The notes beneath the pieces are model-generated. The model did not search any database. It had not been told where the DNA came from and worked only from the letters and a program-made list of their open reading frames with translations. The position numbers and the translations under genes are program-made. 64,000 nucleotides of DNA from Gammaproteobacteria bacterium (GTDB lineage Bacteria > Pseudomonadota > Gammaproteobacteria > Steroidobacterales > Foliamicaceae): assembly GCA_011523505.1 (NCBI GenBank), contig WTGP01000034.1, positions 1 through 64,000 on the forward strand. The letters are read 5' to 3'. The first letter of the stretch is position 1. Each line of letters begins with the position of its first letter. Below, piece by piece: positions 51,951-62,981 of this stretch.

Positions 51951-54311
51951 ATGCCAACGAGAGTCCTGTCTGTTTTTCTCGCGTGCGCGTTGCTGGCGGT
52001 TCCGGTCGGATTCGGCCTGGTAAGAACCGCCCAGGCCGACGAGCATGTCATTGAAGAAGTAGTCGTGACCGCGCGGAAACGGGAGGAAAGCCTGCTCGAA
52101 GTGCCCGTGAGCATTACTGCGATAACGGCCGCCGATATCGATGCAAAGGGGATTACCGAGTTTGTCGACCTGGTCGACTTCACGCCCGGATTCTTCTTCG
52201 CCGAGCATTCGGTGGGCCGAGGCGACCGTTCCAACCGACTGCTGGTCATACGCGGAATGCGCATCGAAACCGAGGACGATCACGTGCAGCCCGCCATGGT
52301 CTTTGTCGATGGCGCGCCCATGATGGGCAGCGTAATCAGCGGACTGGAGGACGCCGAACGAGTTGAAGTGGTCAAGGGGCCGCAGAGCGCCTACTTCGGC
52401 CGGGCCACTTTTTCCGGAGCGGTCAATTTCGTTACGAAGACGCCTTCGGAGGAGTTCGCGGGCAAGATCACCGCCGAGGCAGGGCGTTATGGGACGGCCA
52501 ACTTCGGGGCACAGGTCGAAGGCCCGTTGAGCGAGAACCTGTTCTATCGTGTTTCGGGCAGTACCTATAGCACCGACGGCCATTATCGGCTGGGCAACAA
52601 TCCCGATCAGAAACTGGGCGCCCGCAAGACCTGGAACCTGGCCGCTACCTTGTACGCGACGCCTTCCGATCAGTTCTCGGCCAAGTTGCGCGTGCATCAC
52701 TGGCAGGACGATGACGGCCCTGGCGCGGCCTTCGCATACGGCGAGGGCAACGGCGAGCATTATTTCAACTGCAATCCGCAGGGGTCCACGCTGCTTGAGC
52801 GAAACGGCGGCAACACCTGGATATGCGGCGAAGCTCCGTTTCCCCAACCCGGTGAGATCAACGCCGATTTCGTCTTGAATGCCGCCAAGGAGGGCGTGCT
52901 GAACGGCGTGTCAACCCCGGGACGCCCGGCAATCGTCTCGCCGTTCGACCCACCGTTTCTGAATGGTTTCGGCATGGCACGGCGCGCCTGGAATGCAAGC
53001 CTGGTCATGGACTACGAGTTCACCAATGGAATCTCATTGGCTTCGATTTCGGCATTTCACTCCAACGAGTGGATGGTGCTGGACGACGTGGACCGACGCG
53101 CAACGGCCCATATCGGAGATATCAGGGACACGGGACTGCTGAACAACCGCGACCTCCGGGACTTCAGTCAGGAATTGCGACTTTCCGCGGACCAGGGACG
53201 CTGGCGGTGGCAACTGGGCGCCAACTATTTCGACACCACCGGCGTGCGCTCCACGGGCCTCAAGTTCCTCTTCTGGACCCAGGGACTGGGTGTCGGCAAT
53301 TCCTGGGACATCCAGACGACCGGCTTGTTCGGTTCGCTTGGATATGACCTTACCGATCAGCTGAGCGTGAGCGTCGAAGGACGTCAGCAGTGGGACAAGG
53401 TGGCCGAGGGAGGAGCGTCCTCCCCCACGAGACTGTCGGATACCTTTACCAGCTTTACGCCCCGTGTGATCGTGGATTTCAAGGCGTCCGACGACATCAC
53501 GCTGTATGCCAGTTTCGCCCAGGGCACCCGACCGGGAACTTTCAATGCGAACCTGGTCGGGCGGTCACAGCAGGAGTTGGACCAGATACGTGATCAGACC
53601 GGCGCCGGCCTTACGGTGCCGGAAGAAGAACTGGACAGCTTCGAGCTGGGTCTCAAGGGCAGCCTGCTGGAAGGACGCGCCTGGGTAACCGCAACCGTCT
53701 ATTGGGCCGACTGGAAAGCACAGAGTTCTTCCGGCGCCTTCGTAACGGCTCCCGACGGATCGACCGACTTCGTCGGCCTCACGACCGTGGGCGGCAAGGT
53801 CGATCTGAACGGATTCGAGTTCGAAGGTGCGCTGGCGGTGACCGACAAGCTCAGGGTCGACGCCACCTTCAGCATCAACGATTCGGAAATCAAGAGAGGC
53901 CCCTGCACAAGCCATTGCCCGGTCCTGCTCGGCATCAACAATGTTGACGGACTGGGCAAGCGGACTCAGAAGAATCCCAGGAATCAGGGTTCGCTGGGGC
54001 TGTCCTACACCGACCAGCTCAGCGACCGTTTCGACTGGTACGCTCGCGCCGACTACATCATGACCGGTAGCCGTTTTGCCGGAAACCCGAATCTGACGGA
54101 GACCGGCGACAGCCACCGCGTGAACGTGCGGGCGGGAGTGGAGAACGAAACGATGCGTCTTGAAGTGTTCGGCAAGAACGTCTTTGACGACAAGACCTTC
54201 ACGAACTACCAGATCCTGCACGACTTCGCCTATCTCGGGCCCCGCCGGGTGCTGACCGCCGGGCTTCCCGATCGCGCGGTCTGGGGAGTGCGCGCCTCGT
54301 ACAGCTTCTGA
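51951..54311 (+). CDS. TonB-dependent outer-membrane receptor
   Basis: A 786-residue TonB-dependent receptor. Signal peptide (FLACALLAVPVGFGLVRTAQA), TonB box-like EEVVVTARKREESL, plug domain (about 50-160, with RGMRIETEDDHVQ and VEVVKGPQSAYFGR) and a 22-strand barrel ending in Phe (VRASYSF). A GGGAG ribosome site lies 7 bp before the ATG. It resembles the large group of marine receptors without a known ligand. The coupled M24 peptidase 16 bp downstream and a GntR-like operator 71 bp upstream point to uptake of a small organic substrate or peptide and not a siderophore. Confidence 0.94.
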   Translation: MPTRVLSVFLACALLAVPVGFGLVRTAQADEHVIEEVVVTARKREESLLEVPVSITAITAADIDAKGITEFVDLVDFTPGFFFAEHSVGRGDRSNRLLVIRGMRIETEDDHVQPAMVFVDGAPMMGSVISGLEDAERVEVVKGPQSAYFGRATFSGAVNFVTKTPSEEFAGKITAEAGRYGTANFGAQVEGPLSENLFYRVSGSTYSTDGHYRLGNNPDQKLGARKTWNLAATLYATPSDQFSAKLRVHHWQDDDGPGAAFAYGEGNGEHYFNCNPQGSTLLERNGGNTWICGEAPFPQPGEINADFVLNAAKEGVLNGVSTPGRPAIVSPFDPPFLNGFGMARRAWNASLVMDYEFTNGISLASISAFHSNEWMVLDDVDRRATAHIGDIRDTGLLNNRDLRDFSQELRLSADQGRWRWQLGANYFDTTGVRSTGLKFLFWTQGLGVGNSWDIQTTGLFGSLGYDLTDQLSVSVEGRQQWDKVAEGGASSPTRLSDTFTSFTPRVIVDFKASDDITLYASFAQGTRPGTFNANLVGRSQQELDQIRDQTGAGLTVPEEELDSFELGLKGSLLEGRAWVTATVYWADWKAQSSSGAFVTAPDGSTDFVGLTTVGGKVDLNGFEFEGALAVTDKLRVDATFSINDSEIKRGPCTSHCPVLLGINNVDGLGKRTQKNPRNQGSLGLSYTDQLSDRFDWYARADYIMTGSRFAGNPNLTETGDSHRVNVRAGVENETMRLEVFGKNVFDDKTFTNYQILHDFAYLGPRRVLTAGLPDRAVWGVRASYSF

Positions 54312-54315
54312 TCGC

Positions 54316-54320
54316 GGGAG
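54316..54320 (+). promoter_or_regulatory. Ribosome site deciding a CTG start
   Basis: GGGAG lies 7 bp before CTG 54328 and 25 bp before the first ATG (54346). The spacing fits CTG (or ATT 54331), not the ATG. Confidence 0.55.
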
Positions 54321-54327
54321 TGAGATC

Positions 54328-55740
54328 CTGATTACGCGACGCGAAATGCTGGCGACTGGCCTCGGCGCCGCCGGGGTCGTTGGGGCGGCCGGCGCGTTGA
54401 CCGCCACTGCCTCCGAAGCGGCGGCGGAACTGACGCCCAACGACCTGGCGGAGCGGGTCAAGCGGGTGCGCGCCGGGCCGCTGATGAACCTGGAGCAGGC
54501 CTACCGGGTCATGGAAGAGGAGCAGCTCGACGGCCTGGTGCTGGCCGAGCCGATCAATGTTTTCCATCTCACCGGCCACTGGGGGTCGCTGGCGAAGATG
54601 GGTTACCCGGCGCCCGCCTATGCGCTGCTCTCGAAGGACCAGCGCCAGGCGCCCGGCCTCGTGATGATGCAGTTCATCTACTACTACACCTATTCGGACG
54701 GCCACTTCGATTTCCCCCTGCAGACCTGGCTGTTCAGCGGCTGGGACAGGCGGCTTCAGGACGACGGTGCGGGCGTGGCTGCGGAGGGCGAGCCACCCGC
54801 CAATCCAGCCTACATCTTCGATGACAAGGGCGAGGTGGCGCTGCGGGAGATTGAGCGCCACCGCCGCAGCACGCTCGAAGCCGCATTGTCGCAACAGAAG
54901 CTGAGCGCGGATGCGCGCTGGGCGCTGGTCAACGCCGTCAGGGGCATGGGCCTGGATCGCGGCCGGATCGGCGTGGACCACCTGGTCGTGAACGCGATAT
55001 TCGAAACCGCGGGCCTGGACGCCGTTCCGGTTTACGCGGACCGGGCCCTTAGGCGCATTCGCGCGATCAAGTCCCCGAGGGAAATCGAATTGATGGCGTT
55101 TTCGGCGCAGGCAAATGCCGAGGCCGCTCTTGTGGCGGCGAGGGCGGCGCGTGCCGGGGCCACCTACCAGGAGCTACGGGCGGCCTTCTACTCCGAGGCC
55201 GCAAAGCGCGGCAACCTGGGCGTTTTCATGCAGGTGGACACGATCGGTGCGGAAACCGGCGACGGCGAGTTTCGCGACGGGCAGGCGTTCCAGATAGACT
55301 GCGTGAGCCACGGGTTTCACTATCACGGGGACTACGGACGGACCGTGTTTATCGGCGAGCCCACGCGCTCGATGAAGCGCGCCACCGACGCCATCGCGCT
55401 TGGCTGGGACGCGATCATGGAAGCGCTGCGGCCCGGATTGCGCTATTCCGAGATCCGCCCCATTGGAATGGAAGCGATCAGGAAGGCCGGCCACGACCTG
55501 GATGTAGCCTTCACGCCGCACAGCGTGGGCCTGATGCACACCGACGATCCCGGGCGCGCCGACAGCCCGTTCTACGTCAAGGAAGACGTGGTGCTGGCGG
55601 AAAACATGATCATCAGCGTGGACTGCCCGGTGCGCAACGTGGGCCTGGGCGGCTCCGCCCACCTGGAAGACCTGACGCTGATCACCGCCGACGGCGGCGT
55701 TCAGATCAACGACATCGGCGACCGCGTGATCGTCGTTTGA
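54328..55740 (+). CDS. Tat-exported M24 family metallopeptidase
   Basis: Creatinase/Xaa-Pro peptidase-like protein, about 470 residues. The annotated start is a non-AUG CTG at 54328, which gives a twin-arginine signal MITRREMLATG followed by GLGAAGVVGAAGALTATASEAAAE. Using the ATG at 54346 would cut off the RR motif. ATT at 54331 is another choice. The creatinase N-terminal domain (about 30-240) is followed by the pita-bread fold with the five expected metal ligands: two Asp in FQIDCVSHG and HGDYGRT, His in TPHSVGLMH, Glu in LAENMIISVD, Glu in HLEDLTLI. Tat export is consistent with folding around metal in the cytoplasm. It is coupled to the receptor (16-bp gap). Some family members cleave dipeptides with Pro; others are hydrolases of non-peptides. 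Confidence 0.88.
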   Translation: MITRREMLATGLGAAGVVGAAGALTATASEAAAELTPNDLAERVKRVRAGPLMNLEQAYRVMEEEQLDGLVLAEPINVFHLTGHWGSLAKMGYPAPAYALLSKDQRQAPGLVMMQFIYYYTYSDGHFDFPLQTWLFSGWDRRLQDDGAGVAAEGEPPANPAYIFDDKGEVALREIERHRRSTLEAALSQQKLSADARWALVNAVRGMGLDRGRIGVDHLVVNAIFETAGLDAVPVYADRALRRIRAIKSPREIELMAFSAQANAEAALVAARAARAGATYQELRAAFYSEAAKRGNLGVFMQVDTIGAETGDGEFRDGQAFQIDCVSHGFHYHGDYGRTVFIGEPTRSMKRATDAIALGWDAIMEALRPGLRYSEIRPIGMEAIRKAGHDLDVAFTPHSVGLMHTDDPGRADSPFYVKEDVVLAENMIISVDCPVRNVGLGGSAHLEDLTLITADGGVQINDIGDRVIVV

Positions 55741-55785
55741 GTCCTGGCTGCCGCTCGCCGTCGTGCTTCGGTGCCGCCGTCCGTC

Positions 55786-58263
55786 TCAGGGATGATCTCC
55801 GTAATGGAAGCGGAGCCGCCAGGACGTCAGGGAACCGGTATCGTCGGGCGCCAGGTCCACGACGTTGATTTTCCATTCTCCGTTCGGGTTCTCTCCGTAG
55901 AACGCGTTGCTTAGCAATCGCCACTGGAACAGCCCAGGAAACCCGTTCAGCAGAACATTGAAGGGTGGATTCACGATGCTCTCGGTGCCGCCCGGTGAAG
56001 TGATCGTTACGCCCAGGTCGGCGCCGTAGCTGTGGTCCACGCTGATTTCGAGAGTAACCGCCTCGATGTTCGCCCAATCGGGCAGTTCGCTCACGATGAG
56101 CGTGTCGGTAACGCCGCCGCCCTCTTCATCCGGAATGGGCAGCGGCTGGTCGCCGCTGTCCGGCGGGAACCAGCGGGACTCCTCGAATGCACCCAGGCCG
56201 TCGGGCGTGTAGTCGGCCGCCAGGGCCACGGCATCATCGAGCGCGATCGCTCCGAACCCGTACCAGTTGTGGTAGTGATAGCCGGCGGCGTTCTCCTGCC
56301 ATGCATGCTGGGCGACGTACGGCTGGCCCTTGAAGGCGGCCCGGACTTCCGCCCGGCCGGGATCGATTCTTCGGGCCGTGGTTGCGAGAATGTGTTTGAC
56401 GTCCCGCCAGGTCAAACCGGGGTTTACTCCCAGCATCGCGGCGATCGCGCCGGCCGTCGCGGGCGCAGCGGATGAAGTGCCGCCGAAATTGGCCATGTAG
56501 TCGCCATTCGGATTGAGCGCCGGGTTGTCGCCCAAAGGATCGTCGGCGGAATTGAAACCCGCCTCGCTGCCTTGCTGATCGGCCGTGATCATGGCAGGGT
56601 GCTCGGCGCCGTCCTCGCCGCCGGGCGCAACGACCCACAGATTGGCGCCCGCGCTCGAATAAGACGACTTCATATCCGCGGCATTGAAGGCGCCGACGTT
56701 GACGAGGTACGGCAGGTTTTGATCGGGATCGGCGTTGCTGGCAAAGCACCCGATTTCCGCATTGAGCGGATGCGGCGCGCCGCAAAAGCTGAACTCGTTG
56801 CCCGCCGCCTTCACATAGAGCGCCCCCCGGCCGGACCGAAGCTCGCTTGTTCCCATTTTCATGAGCCGCTCAAAATCCTCGTCGGAATTCGTAGGCGAAT
56901 CCGATCCGAAGCTCATGTTGAAGATGTCCGCGCTGGCCGAATCGGGTTGGCTGTCGCTTGCCCCGAGGCTTCGCAGCAAGGCCGGTCCCAAATCGAAAGC
57001 GGGGGCCGTTGCGGGATTGAAACCCCGGATCCGTACCTCCGGCGCCACCCCGCGGCCGCCCAGGCCGTTGTTCGCCGCGGCAGCCGCGACGCCCGCGACG
57101 CCCGTTCCATGATCGCCGTGTATGTTCACGTTGAACGGATCGGCGAGCGACGCTCCCGCGCTCTGCTCCCACCCGAAGTTATATGACTTGCCGTCCTCGA
57201 CGTTGGCCATCAGGTCCGGATGGCAGATTTCAAGTCCCGAGTCCACCACGGCCAGCTTGACCCCGGCGCCGTTCCAGCCGTTCGCAATCGCTTCGGTCAT
57301 TCTCAGATCGGCGCCGGGGACGCCCGGATTTCTTGAGAATGCTCTCTGCCCGGTGTTTTGCAAGTGCCATTGTTCCGCGAACAGGGGATCCGGCCCCACA
57401 CCGTCAACGGTTTGCGCGGCGCCACCGCACTGCGTCACGACCTTGCCTTGCGCATCGGTCGCAAACGAGAAAAATCCCGCTTCGCCGCCTTCCGGCACGA
57501 CCGTGTCCGGGTACACCCGGATGTAGTAGTGTCCGTTCGGCGCCAGGCGGTCCAGCGGCAATCGGAACTCGTAGGGTTGAAGAAATACCAGCATTTCCGG
57601 ATCGAACGGCGGAATATCCAGGGCGCCGACAAGATTTCCGCCGCCGGCAAAGTCCCTGTCGCTTGACCACTCGGCGATCAGACGGGAAGACGACTCGCCC
57701 GCGTCCAGGACCAGTACCACGAAATCAAACGACGTTTCCGTGACGGCGAAGCTGAAGGGGAGGATGCCCGGCTCGAAGCCTGACTCATCGGGAGACTTGT
57801 CGATTTGCGCCGCCTCTCCGTCGACGACCGTAATCGTGATACTGGATGCCGATCCGGGTTGGGCAATCCCCCTGATGGCGCCGAGACTGATCGTGATGGT
57901 TTCGTCTCCCTCCGATTCGAAATCCCGGAAAACCTCCACCTGCATATCGGACCCGGCAGCACCGGGGGGCACAACGATGGAGTCGGAGCTGGCCACGTAA
58001 TCGTAGTCGCGGGTGGCCGTGCCCGAAAAGAGCAGTGGAACCGCCAGACCGCGGTGCCCCGTGGAATTCACCGAGACGGAAACCGTCACCGTGCGGTTGC
58101 CGGCTTCGGGAATCTCGGCCGGCGAAGGCGCGACCAGCGACACGACCACCGGCGGATCGGACGCGCCGCCCCCGCAGGCGCCAAGCAGGAGGCAGGCGGC
58201 AAGCGCACCGACCCTGAATGCCGAACCCGCCGGGTCAGATACTCCAGCAAAAGCGGCGGTCAT
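55786..58263 (-). CDS. Kexin-like S8 serine protease lipoprotein with Calx-beta and P domains
   Basis: An 825-residue secreted protease. Lipobox LGAC with acylated Cys30, then GGG. Residues about 40-150 are a Calx-beta-like domain (IPEAGNRTVTVSVSVN, DFESEGDETITISLG). A beta-rich linker (170-275) leads into the subtilase domain, opening with DPLFAEQWHLQNTGQ as in kexins. Triad: Asp341 (VVDSGLE), His385 (HGDHGTGVAG), Ser597 (GGTSSAAP), with oxyanion Asn489 (AAGNE). The C-terminal P domain (about 718-825) has WRLLSNAFYGENPNGEWKIN and TGSLTSWRLRFHYG. No N-terminal propeptide is visible, so folding help may come from the gene 1 nt upstream. The stop is convergent with the M24 gene, 45 bp away. Confidence 0.92.
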   Translation of the reverse strand: MTAAFAGVSDPAGSAFRVGALAACLLLGACGGGASDPPVVVSLVAPSPAEIPEAGNRTVTVSVSVNSTGHRGLAVPLLFSGTATRDYDYVASSDSIVVPPGAAGSDMQVEVFRDFESEGDETITISLGAIRGIAQPGSASSITITVVDGEAAQIDKSPDESGFEPGILPFSFAVTETSFDFVVLVLDAGESSSRLIAEWSSDRDFAGGGNLVGALDIPPFDPEMLVFLQPYEFRLPLDRLAPNGHYYIRVYPDTVVPEGGEAGFFSFATDAQGKVVTQCGGAAQTVDGVGPDPLFAEQWHLQNTGQRAFSRNPGVPGADLRMTEAIANGWNGAGVKLAVVDSGLEICHPDLMANVEDGKSYNFGWEQSAGASLADPFNVNIHGDHGTGVAGVAAAAANNGLGGRGVAPEVRIRGFNPATAPAFDLGPALLRSLGASDSQPDSASADIFNMSFGSDSPTNSDEDFERLMKMGTSELRSGRGALYVKAAGNEFSFCGAPHPLNAEIGCFASNADPDQNLPYLVNVGAFNAADMKSSYSSAGANLWVVAPGGEDGAEHPAMITADQQGSEAGFNSADDPLGDNPALNPNGDYMANFGGTSSAAPATAGAIAAMLGVNPGLTWRDVKHILATTARRIDPGRAEVRAAFKGQPYVAQHAWQENAAGYHYHNWYGFGAIALDDAVALAADYTPDGLGAFEESRWFPPDSGDQPLPIPDEEGGGVTDTLIVSELPDWANIEAVTLEISVDHSYGADLGVTITSPGGTESIVNPPFNVLLNGFPGLFQWRLLSNAFYGENPNGEWKINVVDLAPDDTGSLTSWRLRFHYGDHP

Positions 58264-58264
58264 G

Positions 58265-58822
58265 CTAACGCCACTTGATTCTCGGCCCGGACAGCCGGAT
58301 TGTTGCCTTGTGCCGGCCGGGACCTTCCGCCAGTTCGGCTATTGCGTCGAGAGGATGCACGGTGTCCGGCAGGTAGATGATCGCAAAGCCCAGTTTCGCG
58401 AAGAAATCGGCTTTCTCGGCGCCGAGGGCACTCTTCGCGGACTCCAGTTGACGCTCGCTTGAAAGCTCGACGCGAATGCTGGGAAGCAATCGCGCAAAGG
58501 ATCGACGCATCGGATCAAAAGCGATTCGGGAGTACGGCCCCTCCAACGGTGTGGCGGCCCGGTAGATTGCGCCCGCACAATGAACGACATGCACCCTGAG
58601 GGAACGAGTCTCATACGAGGATCCGGTTACCAGGCCCGCTTGCGACTGCGCATGACCCGACACGGCGGAAGACGGCAGCACGATGACTTCCCGGCTTTGT
58701 GCAAGGACAGCCTGAAACCCGTTTGGTTCCGCTGCTTGCGCGTCCGAATGAATGCCCGCAGTGACCGCGAGCAGGCACCAGGAAAGGAAGATAGGCGCCG
58801 ATAGCCGTGATGGGGCAGTCAT
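58265..58822 (-). CDS. Secreted protein resembling a detached subtilase propeptide/inhibitor
   Basis: A 185-residue exported protein with signal peptide (PIFLSWCLLAVTAGIHSDAQA). Not assigned to a family by motif. The C-terminal 70 residues resemble the propeptide or I9-type inhibitor of S8 proteases by pattern: ESAKSALGAEKADFFAKLG, then GFAIIYLPDTVHPLDAIAEL. That is the helix, strand with LPxxV, and helix order seen in many subtilase pro-domains. The stop is 1 nt before the ATG of the S8 protease, so they are translationally coupled. The upstream half (about 37-110) is unknown and has one cysteine. The activity is inferred. Confidence 0.75.
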   Translation of the reverse strand: MTAPSRLSAPIFLSWCLLAVTAGIHSDAQAAEPNGFQAVLAQSREVIVLPSSAVSGHAQSQAGLVTGSSYETRSLRVHVVHCAGAIYRAATPLEGPYSRIAFDPMRRSFARLLPSIRVELSSERQLESAKSALGAEKADFFAKLGFAIIYLPDTVHPLDAIAELAEGPGRHKATIRLSGPRIKWR

Positions 58823-58845
58823 TGCCGGGACCGCCGGTGGCGTAG

Positions 58846-58879
58846 GCTCACGGGCGCGACTTTATGCGCGCCCGTGAGC
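58846..58879 (-). terminator. 13-bp perfect hairpin between receptor and inhibitor-like gene
   Basis: GCTCACGGGCGCG and CGCGCCCGTGAGC pair fully around an 8-nt loop (ACTTTATG on the plus strand). It lies 20 bp after the TonB receptor stop and 24 bp before the next ATG, both on the minus strand. There is no following T-run in the minus direction, so it may be a stability or attenuation element and not a true intrinsic terminator. Confidence 0.6.
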
Positions 58880-58898
58880 GTTCGGACTGCCTCGGAGA

Positions 58899-61604
58899 CT
58901 AAAAGTCCCAGACGCCTCTCAGGTAGTAGTAGCCGCCGTTGTACCCGAAGGGCGAGGTGTCCGGCCAGATGAGCCCGGACGTATTGGACCGCTCCTCGGG
59001 ATACTCGTCGAGAATGTTCTCCGCGCCCACGATCAAACGTACGGCGTCGTTGAACTGGTAGCCGACCTCGACGTCCACGACGGTGCTCGCGTCCACGTCG
59101 AAGTAATTGCTGCCGTCATCGAGCGTGAACTCTTCGAAGCCGCCGTAGTAGCGCACGCGGGCCAGCAGGTCCCAGCGGTCCTGCGAGTGACTGAAGGAAA
59201 CCGTAAAGCGCGTGCCCGGCGTGTTCCCCTCAATTTGCGTGACCCGCTTGTCGTTGATCACGTCCGGGTCGCGCTCGTCCACCGTGGTATCGGTCCAGTT
59301 GGCCGCCAGGCTCAGATTGGTCTCGCCCATGCCGAAGTCCAGCGGATAGGTGGCGACCACGTCGACGCCCTGGGTGGTGGTGGTGAAGTTGTTGGTGTAG
59401 AACCGCACCGCGGTAAAGGCCTGGGCATCGGCCACCCCCGCGGCCAGCAGCTGCTCAATGTTGGCCGGCGTGAGGTTTTTCTCGGAGCTTCTTGCGATCC
59501 TGTCCTCGACCTCGATGTTGAAATAGTCCACCGTGATGTCGAGCGCGTCCAACTGGATGACCGCGCCCACGGTGAGGTTCACGGCCTCTTCCGGCGTGAG
59601 CGGCTGGGCGCCCACGATGGCGGCCGCCGGGTGGGTGGGCGGCAACGTGGCCTCATCGGCCAGCACGCCGCCGGTGAACGCCGTGGTCACGTTCAGGATG
59701 TTCGCCTGGCCCACCGTCGGCGCGCGGAACCCGGTGCTCGCCGCCGCACGCAGGGAGACCGTTTCGCTGACGTCAAGACGCCCCGCCACCTTGCCGTCGA
59801 AGGTGTTGCCGATATCGGCATGGTCCTCGTAGCGGCCGGCTACCTGGAACGTGAACGTGTCGGTTACTTCGATTTCCACGTCACCGTAGGCTGCGTAGCT
59901 GTTGCGGCCGAACTCTCCGGCCAGACGCGGTCCGAACCCGGTGAACCCGTTGGAGCCGATTCCGAAGCCCTGCTCGGCCAGCCCCCCGGGACTGTCATCG
60001 AGGAACCAGGAGTTCTCTCCGCCGCTTTCCACCTTGAATTTTTCCCGGCGGTGCTCGACGCCCATCGCGATATGCGCGGGCAGATCGCCGATCGTCATGT
60101 CCCTGGTGACGTCGAAGTTCACCGTGTAGTCGGTCTGCGTATACGAGCCCGGGAAGTAATTGATCGGGATTTCCGTCCGCTGGCCGTGCGGCAGCTTGGC
60201 CAGCAGTTGCGGGTTGATGGTGTGACGCATCGTAAAGTCGACGTCGTTCACGCCGAACACGGCGCTGGCGTCGAACGACCAGTCGCCAAATAGGTCGCCG
60301 CGAACCCCGAACGCCGCGGAATAGTCGGTCAGAATGCCGCCGAACCTCGGAACGAAGCCGCCGGGAAACGCCGAAATGAAGGAGAAGCAATTGGGGTCGG
60401 CCTCAACCGCGGCAATGTCGGCGGGGTTGGCCACATTGTTGTTGATGCGGATGGGTGGGCATGGCTGGTCGTCCCAGATGCCGCCAGGCGACAGGTCGGC
60501 CACCTTCACGCTGGGGCCGAATTCCGTGCCCGCCGGAACCATGGTGTCGGTGTCGTCTGCCCACCACTTTATGGGATCGCCGTTCTCGTCAAGCCCCCTG
60601 GTTACGAAAGTTCTGCCGTCAGCGGTGGCGCCGGGACCCTCGAAGACGCCGCCGCGGGTGTGCGGATTACGGAAGTAGAACCCGCCTTCCATCTTGCGCT
60701 TTGCGAAGTTTCCGAAGGCGTAGGCTTCGCGCCCGCCACCGAGATCGAGCCCCAGATTGGCGAACATCTTGTAGTCGTACTCGAATTCCGGCGCGCCCCA
60801 CACCATGACATTGGGATGGAACGTATGCGGATAGTCCGGATCGTCGATGTACGGGTTGCCCGCGTCCGCCAGGCCCTGGGCGTCGCTGCGCTGCACCGAG
60901 CGGTCGGTGGGGTCGGACTGCTTGTACTCGAAGCTGAAATTTGCGAATCCGTTGGAGGTGAGCGGAAGCCCGAAGTTGGCCGCGACGTTCACGGCGTCGC
61001 CATCGCCTTCAAAATAGGTTCCGTATTTCGCGGTGATCGTGCTTCCCTCGGCGTCGTCCCTGAGCGTGAAGTTGATCACGCCCGCGATGGCGTCCGAACC
61101 GTATTGCGACGCCGCTCCGTCACGCAGGACTTCCACGCTCTTGATCGCAATGGCCGGAATCGCGGAGAGATCGGGGCCCTGCGAGCCGTCGGCAACGCCG
61201 TTGCCGAGAAAGGTGATGACCGCGGCGCGATGACGGCGCTTGCGATTGACCAGCGCAAGGGTTGAATCCGGGGGCAGCCCGCGTAGCCGCGCCGGCCGGA
61301 TCAGCGTGGCAGCGTCGTTGATGGCCTGCTGGTCCACGTTGTAGGAAGGCACCAGGGCCGAGAGCAGCGCGTCCATGTCGGTCGGTCCCTGACTGCCGAG
61401 ATCGTCGCCGCCGATGTAATCGACGGGCACCAGCGAATCCGTCGCCGACCGTCCTTCGCGGCGGCGCGTTCCCAGCACCACGATTTCGTCAATCGTGCCG
61501 GAGGCAGCCTCTGCTGCCTCTTCCTGGGCCGTGGCCGGAGCCGTTGCAAGGACGCCGACAAGCGGCAGGGAAAGGGCGAAGGAAAGGACTGAAAAGCGTT
61601 TCAT
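58899..61604 (-). CDS. TonB-dependent outer-membrane receptor
   Basis: A 901-residue TonB-dependent receptor. Signal peptide VLSFALSLPLVGVLATAPATAQ, TonB box-like EIVVLGTRRREGR, plug domain with SVEVLRDGAASQYGSDAIAGVINF (catalogued as typical of large receptors), then a barrel with a long extracellular loop carrying two nearby Cys (DDQPCPP and DPNCFSF) and a C-terminal Phe (YYLRGVWDF). It is unlike the first receptor at 51951. It is followed by a perfect hairpin, then the inhibitor-like and S8 protease genes on the same strand, and is divergent from an M19 dipeptidase (120-bp gap). The substrate is unknown; peptides are likely from the neighbours. Confidence 0.93.
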   Translation of the reverse strand: MKRFSVLSFALSLPLVGVLATAPATAQEEAAEAASGTIDEIVVLGTRRREGRSATDSLVPVDYIGGDDLGSQGPTDMDALLSALVPSYNVDQQAINDAATLIRPARLRGLPPDSTLALVNRKRRHRAAVITFLGNGVADGSQGPDLSAIPAIAIKSVEVLRDGAASQYGSDAIAGVINFTLRDDAEGSTITAKYGTYFEGDGDAVNVAANFGLPLTSNGFANFSFEYKQSDPTDRSVQRSDAQGLADAGNPYIDDPDYPHTFHPNVMVWGAPEFEYDYKMFANLGLDLGGGREAYAFGNFAKRKMEGGFYFRNPHTRGGVFEGPGATADGRTFVTRGLDENGDPIKWWADDTDTMVPAGTEFGPSVKVADLSPGGIWDDQPCPPIRINNNVANPADIAAVEADPNCFSFISAFPGGFVPRFGGILTDYSAAFGVRGDLFGDWSFDASAVFGVNDVDFTMRHTINPQLLAKLPHGQRTEIPINYFPGSYTQTDYTVNFDVTRDMTIGDLPAHIAMGVEHRREKFKVESGGENSWFLDDSPGGLAEQGFGIGSNGFTGFGPRLAGEFGRNSYAAYGDVEIEVTDTFTFQVAGRYEDHADIGNTFDGKVAGRLDVSETVSLRAAASTGFRAPTVGQANILNVTTAFTGGVLADEATLPPTHPAAAIVGAQPLTPEEAVNLTVGAVIQLDALDITVDYFNIEVEDRIARSSEKNLTPANIEQLLAAGVADAQAFTAVRFYTNNFTTTTQGVDVVATYPLDFGMGETNLSLAANWTDTTVDERDPDVINDKRVTQIEGNTPGTRFTVSFSHSQDRWDLLARVRYYGGFEEFTLDDGSNYFDVDASTVVDVEVGYQFNDAVRLIVGAENILDEYPEERSNTSGLIWPDTSPFGYNGGYYYLRGVWDF

Positions 61605-61724
61605 TGTTTGTTCCCCCGAATAGAAAACAATGCCTCAGAACAGCGAGTAATAGTACACCATGGGTTTGCGCTCTCATTGTTGTATTCTTTTGGCCGTTTC
61701 CGGCGCGGGAGAGGGGCGCAGGCC

Positions 61725-62981
61725 ATGAAGCAAAGAGGCGGGTCGACCGGAGCAATATTGATGGCGGGATTACTTACAGGAGCAGCGGGCGCGGATACTG
61801 AAGCGGAGATGCTGGAACGTGCCCGGACCATCCAGGACCGGGTGATCACAATAGACACCCATGTCGACATTCCGCCCGACTTCGGAACGGAGGCGTACGA
61901 TCCGGCGCGGGCCAAGCCTCCGGGCCAGCAGGTGGACCTGCCGGGAATGGAGCAGGGCGGGCTGGATGCGGCGTTTTTCATCGTATTCGTGATGCAGCGC
62001 GAGCGCAGCGAGGCCGGCTATGCCCGCGCGATCGCCGACGCGTTCGTCAAGTACGCGGCCATCCGCAAGATGACCGACGTCGACTATTCCGACCGGATCG
62101 GGCTGGCACTCACCGCCGCGGACGTCCGCCGCATACACGCCGAAGGCCGCCGCGTCGCATTGATCGGCATCGAAAACGGCTTTTCCATAGGCCGCCACGT
62201 GGACCTGCTCGACGTCCACTACGCGTCCGGCGCGCGCTACCTGGGCCTGGTGCACAACGGCCACAACGACATCGGCGATTCCGCCGTCCCCAACCTGGCG
62301 CGGGGCGAGCCCAGATCGGAACATGGCGGACTGAGCGAGTTCGGCCGCGCGGTGGTCCGGCGCGCCAACGAACTGGGGATCATGGTGGACATATCCCATG
62401 CCTCGGAAGCCACGGCGATGAATGCGATCGAAGCGTCCGAGGCGCCGGTGATCGCCTCGCACTCGGCCGCCAGGGGCGCCTTTGCGCATGCGCGCAATTT
62501 GAGCGATGAAGCGCTCCTGGCGATGCGGGAAAACGGCGGCGTGGTGCAGATCGTGGCCTTCGATTCCTACCTGCGCGAGACTCCGCCGGAAAAGGTCGAG
62601 GCCATGGGCGCGCTGTACCGGGACATGAGTCTAAGAAATGCCGGCGATTTCGCCCGCATGTCCCCCGAACAGCGTGAGGACTACTATTCGCGCCTGAGTG
62701 AAATTACCCGCATGCCGCCCCGGGCGTCGGTGAAGCACCTGGCCGATCACATCGACTACGCGGTCGGGCTGATCGGGATCGACCACGTGGGGATATCGTC
62801 CGATTTCAACGGCGGCGGGGGCATCGAGGGCTGGGACAACGCCGCCGAAACCCTCAACGTTACGGTGGAACTGGTGCGGCGCGGTTATTCCGAGGAGCAG
62901 ATCGCCAAACTCTGGGGCGGCAACCTGCTCAGGGTGATGGAAGCGGTCGAGTCGGTCGCGTCGAGATTAAAGGGGGAGTGA
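61725..62981 (+). CDS. Exported M19 membrane dipeptidase-like enzyme
   Basis: Renal dipeptidase-type (M19) zinc hydrolase, 418 residues, with a signal peptide (GAILMAGLLTGAAGA). Zinc ligands are conserved: His-x-Asp in DTHVDIP, Glu in IGIENGFSIG, His in MVDISHAS, His in VIASHSAARG, and Asp in GISSDFNGGGG. It would cleave dipeptides, possibly with D-residues, in the periplasm. The ATG at 61725 lies at the start of the signal peptide; the longer frame from 61608 is not family-like. It is divergent from the second receptor and overlaps xseB by 15 bp in convergent orientation. Confidence 0.92.
   Translation: MKQRGGSTGAILMAGLLTGAAGADTEAEMLERARTIQDRVITIDTHVDIPPDFGTEAYDPARAKPPGQQVDLPGMEQGGLDAAFFIVFVMQRERSEAGYARAIADAFVKYAAIRKMTDVDYSDRIGLALTAADVRRIHAEGRRVALIGIENGFSIGRHVDLLDVHYASGARYLGLVHNGHNDIGDSAVPNLARGEPRSEHGGLSEFGRAVVRRANELGIMVDISHASEATAMNAIEASEAPVIASHSAARGAFAHARNLSDEALLAMRENGGVVQIVAFDSYLRETPPEKVEAMGALYRDMSLRNAGDFARMSPEQREDYYSRLSEITRMPPRASVKHLADHIDYAVGLIGIDHVGISSDFNGGGGIEGWDNAAETLNVTVELVRRGYSEEQIAKLWGGNLLRVMEAVESVASRLKGE

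Follow-up and report, generated by a model that had tools for sequence, protein, structure and literature searches.

How is a subtilisin-like protease that shows no propeptide folded and kept in check, and could a small secreted protein encoded directly before it take that part? Subtilase propeptides are normally built into the N-terminus of the protease, where they serve as folding helper. In the window, i.e., the whole 64,000-nucleotide stretch of DNA analyzed here, the gene for a kexin-like lipoprotease is preceded by one for a 185-residue protein, and a preliminary description of the locus had proposed that the latter provides the pro-domain in trans. Both open reading frames were found as given there, with a signal peptide on the small protein and a single nucleotide between the genes (Table 1). 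Compared with the orthologue from the sister genome, the partner (as the small protein is called in the following) was 82% identical; a dN/dS of ∼0.21 at a divergence of 18% of the residues indicates that it is a real, selected protein. A second complete pair was present on another contig of the window's own genome (L034, 4124–7326, on G000:C15), its partner being 41% and its protease 54% identical to those of the window. Coupling of the two genes by translation, which had also been claimed, is plausible from the one-base gaps and the ATGA or TAATG overlaps observed in tandem loci, but it is not essential, because the genes are convergent in three relatives.

The pair is surrounded (window positions 51951–62981) by genes for two TonB receptors, an M24 peptidase, and an M19 dipeptidase, which resembles a peptide-scavenging cluster. 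The sister locus (L026) keeps the TonB receptor adjacent to the pair and both peptidases; the other loci fetched do not.

Table 1. Features of the gene pair (nucleotide positions in the window; residue numbers refer to the respective protein).
Feature	Position	Strand	Basis
Gene of the secreted partner (185 aa), proposed to be an external propeptide with chaperone and inhibitor roles	58265..58822	-	ORF, profile match, predicted fold
Partner signal peptide, residues ∼1–31, ..DAQA/AEP	58730..58822	-	Sequence by eye; A-x-A site conserved in A1
Partner domain, predicted βαββαβ, residues 108–177	58292..58501	-	AF2 model, structural match; PF22148 over 118–168
Partner tail SGPRIKWR, proposed product-like inhibitory tail, Arg in S1	58268..58291	-	Constant tail length; ASP/ORF2 precedent
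Gene junction TAG-C-ATG (stop codon of the partner, single base, start codon of the protease)	58261..58267	-	Sequence; ATGA or TAATG overlaps in relatives
Kexin/ASP-like S8 lipoprotease, 825 aa	55786..58263	-	ORF, Pfam, relatives by sequence
Lipoprotein signal peptide, lipobox LLLGAC, Cys30	58174..58263	-	Sequence, by eye
Calx-beta-like domain, residues 57–145	57829..58095	-	Pfam, under cut-off
Middle beta-rich region, residues ∼162–270	57454..57780	-	Alignments
S8 catalytic domain, residues 332–643, Asp341/His385/Ser597	56335..57270	-	Pfam 7e-36
P domain, residues 733–819	55807..56067	-	Pfam 4e-17

The character of the protease was confirmed: the catalytic triad was as described, a lipobox was present, and Pfam matched S8 and P domains; an S8 domain followed by a P domain is a trait of kexin and the proprotein convertases. 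No prodomain was matched by Pfam across its 825 residues, in agreement with the claim that an N-terminal propeptide is not visible; the N-terminal part consists of the lipobox, the Calx-beta-like domain, and the middle region. That the N-terminus is a Calx-beta domain is plausible from the Pfam match, but the score (24.2 bits) stays under the Pfam cut-off of 27. Alignments placed a region comparable to the middle beta-rich stretch between prodomain and S8 domain in relatives where the two are fused (see below). By sequence, the best solved relatives of the protease were ASP (3hjr) and ASP in its complex with ORF2 (3wqb_A), with E values of ∼5e-75 over residues 290–806; furin and kexin ranked behind (E ∼1e-26). 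ASP, from Aeromonas sobria, requires ORF2 for activity (PMC5638518).

The partner's last 70 residues had been likened to a subtilase pro-domain. The predicted domain (residues 108–177) lies close to that stretch, and the profile, the predicted fold, and the occurrence of natural fusions with this protease agree on the likeness. The fervidolysin-type prodomain (Pfam PF22148) was matched by 12 of 14 partner homologues (best E value 5.7e-6); the window partner itself scored 15.1 bits, which is below the Pfam gathering cut-off of 21. Pfam ORF_2_N was matched by none of the 14 members among the hits listed at E values up to 10. Neither the profile of the partner family nor that of a second, downstream-encoded family (see below) retrieved a relevant PDB chain by sequence, and against PHROGs, the partner gave a chance-level match only. 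An AlphaFold2 model of the partner, built from a nine-row alignment (mean pLDDT 75; 82–92 across most of residues 71–180), has the βαββαβ prodomain fold. When the candidates from Foldseek were realigned, the top structural match of the model (residues 35–185) was ORF2 (3wqb_B; Z 8.5, rmsd 3.3, 99 of 99 residues); the prodomain of PC1/3 was third, and ORF2 in solution and the subtilisin prodomain were also present in the list. The fold is common and the margin small (an unrelated ferredoxin-like chain reached Z 8.2, little below the 8.5 of ORF2), and the structural match would not decide the prodomain identity by itself. It is, moreover, a product of the realignment: without it, RRM and metal-binding domains headed the Foldseek list, in which every E value was 0.001 or higher. 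By independent methods, then, the partner leads to ORF2 and the protease to ASP, each pointing to one chain of one crystal structure.

The relatives of the pair were collected from 396 genomes of the order; the 23 matches to the partner were spread over 11 of them. Ten of the 396 had a close protease (E under 1e-150), and all 10 also contained the partner (Fisher p 5e-19, kinship ignored), which bears out the expected co-occurrence of the pair across genomes. In the eleventh partner genome (G050), an intact partner lies beside a protease remnant. The partner profile gave no match beyond the own genome when run against 369 genomes of the class, and a scan of genome_contigs with the single protein gave no relative. 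The profile scan of genome_contigs was based on a four-row alignment, and its loci L049 and L051–L056 stem from the same assemblies as G099, G119, and G131 and are not independent cases. In a tree of the S8 domains, which leaves out the broken L046, three clades were each strongly supported. Clade A, including the window, is arranged in tandem with the partner upstream. In clade B, the genes are in tandem in three loci (L039, L041, and L042) and convergent neighbors, not an operon, in three others (L037, L038, and L040). In clade C, a homologue of the partner forms the N-terminus of the protease itself; this was found in five loci from two genera (L043, L044, L045, L047, and the broken L046), the middle region being present and the Calx-beta-like domain absent before S8. 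All three types occur together in one genome (G131, with L033, L042, and L047). The fusion of a partner homologue to the same protease identifies what the partner is. Homologous proteases that have a propeptide and lack the neighbor, which would speak against action in trans, do exist, but this objection fails because the propeptide is the neighbor's own homologue. Most simply, the fusion in clade C is the derived state, as the trans arrangement is shared by clades A and B, the downstream family, and ASP; the tree supports the clades, not the order of A, B, and C. A model of a fused protein (L056) had a pLDDT of ∼30 over the S8 domain, and the structural search matched its protease part and P domain only. 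Within clade A, the distances of partner and S8 domain correlated (r 0.89), which fits cotransmission as well as coevolution.

Some loci depart from these arrangements. In L049 (5986–6510; identical with L029), an intact partner has no protease within ∼6 kb and is flanked by penicillin-binding-protein-like and transporter-permease-like ORFs; this orphan is possibly a free inhibitor. In L027 (4328–5323), an intact partner adjoins a decayed protease, of which only parts matching residues 642–825 are left. The fused version in L046/L055 (1103–2838) is split into frames, owing to either a pseudogene or an assembly error. One clade A partner (L050, 4282–4905) lies terminally on a contig of 4.9 kb that is labeled Candidatus Dadabacteria, owing to either transfer or misbinning.

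In more distant lipoproteases of the order (40–47% identical over the S8 and P region), Pfam likewise matched no prodomain in those members that were scanned. Nine of these distant lipoproteases have an ORF of 170–210 residues directly downstream, most with an evident signal peptide, starting between ∼28 bases before and ∼15 bases after the protease stop codon. Pfam ORF_2_N was matched by seven of the nine downstream proteins (best 1e-11), and the fervidolysin prodomain also by three. Alignment of this downstream family with the partner family of the window (hhalign) gave an E value of 2.4e-5 and a score of 38.9, compared with 17.3 at most for 100 column shuffles and 15.6 for the reversed alignment. 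L095 had no ORF2-type neighbor, and two further loci were cut by contig ends or truncated. The ORF2-type genes downstream of ASP-like lipoproteases lie in other families of the order (L088–L094, L096, and L085) and apparently belong to a broader ASP/ORF2 family in which the tails vary (PF, PY, PR, RAQ, and RAR).

We consider it probable, at roughly 0.8, that the partner represents an ASP/ORF2-type external propeptide, which would help the protease to fold in the periplasm and then inhibit it via its Trp-Arg tail. After export to the periplasm independently of the protease, the partner would bind the S8 domain with its βαββαβ domain and serve as folding template. Its last residues (..Lys-Trp-Arg) would plug the active-site cleft in the manner of a product, with the Arg in S1, and hold the lipoprotease inactive until degradation or release of the partner, as for ORF2. 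The main competitor is a partner that acts as regulatory inhibitor only and restrains, in the periplasm, a protease that folds unaided. Stand-alone propeptide-like inhibitors for which no chaperone role was shown provide the precedent (PMC6993865); Plasmodium SUB1-ProM, whose gene lies near subtilase genes, and the I9-type inhibitors of fungi and plants are, like the partner, subtilase propeptide-like proteins in their own right. Partners that persist intact by no protease (L029/L049) or by a decayed one (L027) also fit inhibition and count against a pure folding helper. SUB1 differs in having its own propeptide besides SUB1-ProM. Against inhibition alone, no cis propeptide was found in the window protease; the same domain occupies the position of a folding propeptide in clade C, as N-terminal part of the protease; and in ASP/ORF2, the closest characterized pair, the partner is needed for activity. 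Inhibition alone is an unlikely account of the pair.

For the external propeptide, the inhibitory part of the proposal would depend on the C-terminal tail. From the last strand position to the C-terminus, exactly eight residues remain in clade A, in clade B, and in seven of the nine downstream partners (e.g., ..RL SGPRIKWR, ..QL AGPLRVPL, and ..EI LESVQVPF), and the profile alignment, made without regard to the tails, leaves eight residues on both sides. At the tail-end point, Pro-Met is found in each of the five fused proteins (..LF EPAARRPM NVWAED), the anchoring in this clade being gapless and set by us. The stop codon of the partner is read, on the strength of these alignments, as standing where a self-cleavage site would be. 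The tail of ORF2 ends in Gln-Pro-Lys, with the Lys at the catalytic site of ASP (PMC5638518). The Trp-Arg end might instead be a by-product of the overlap with the protease start codon, which would concern the tail only and be compatible with an external propeptide: in most tandem loci of clade A, an ATG or GTG in frame with the protease lies ten bases back, within the end of the partner gene, and ATGA overlaps occur in several of these loci. Yet an orphan partner of clade A keeps the final Arg, tail length is constant across families, and a tail of its own (..VPL or IPL) is retained in clade B irrespective of whether the genes are tandem or convergent, the convergent ones having no overlap. 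Since the convergent clade B partners retain their tails, start-codon overlap does not fully account for the tail, and such an origin of the Trp-Arg end is quite doubtful.

On the protease side, and with regard to kexin-type cleavage after basic residues, the Asp of the Asn-x-Asp site, which aligns with CDGYT of furin, is kept, and clade A has a second Asp (DPD). A simple switch of the S1 acid between the clades with Arg and Leu tails was looked for and not found, the furin-type Asn-x-Asp site being kept in both.

That the partner shares just the ferredoxin-like fold and does something else, e.g., as periplasmic protein of a peptide-use cluster, would be in keeping with a widespread fold for which middling Z scores are common and with the TonB receptor, M24, and M19 peptidase genes nearby, but it is highly improbable in view of the natural S8 fusion, the tight co-occurrence, the prodomain profile in most homologues, and ORF2 as top match, and the TonB and peptidase surroundings are kept in the nearest sister only.

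As a probable external propeptide with its protease, the window pair was filed as a variant of ASP/ORF2 (PDB 3HJR, 3WQB, and 2MK4), not as ASP/ORF2 proper. Both systems combine a kexin-like S8 and P domain protease devoid of a cis propeptide with a small secreted partner from an adjacent gene, and the window partner's model and protease best match ORF2 and ASP, respectively. They differ in that the partner gene lies upstream in the window whereas that of ORF2 lies downstream, in that the partner family is too divergent for Pfam ORF_2_N, and in that the window protease has additional N-terminal domains and is a lipoprotein; furthermore, the tail ends in Trp-Arg instead of Gln-Pro-Lys, and the window pair has fused and convergent relatives. 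With fervidolysin, the pair shares the C-terminal domain of the partner (the PF22148 match in 12 of 14 homologues), but the prodomain of fervidolysin is within the protease chain and the partner is a separate protein. Tentatively, and as a possibility more than an expectation, a single propeptide lineage may have moved between trans (downstream, upstream, convergent, or orphan) and cis (re-fused N-terminally), with the domain end fixed at one point and stop codon and self-cleavage site being interchangeable; orphan copies may then diffuse and inhibit paralogous proteases of their own cell.

External chaperones of this kind are already known from ASP/ORF2 (PMC5638518), and according to a survey from 2022, subtilases fold by means of a built-in propeptide, with ASP named as the exception (PMC9549277). 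New are the upstream position of the gene, the divergent partner, the lipoprotein nature of the enzyme, and the presence of split and fused forms in one genome; a literature search that covered few subscription papers retrieved no paper on upstream, convergent, or re-fused versions of ASP/ORF2. Going by the window and its relatives, separate propeptides appear to be a wider habit of ASP-like proteases. One enzyme in naturally split and fused form, in part within a single genome, provides material for asking whether folding help, inhibition, or both require a covalent link.
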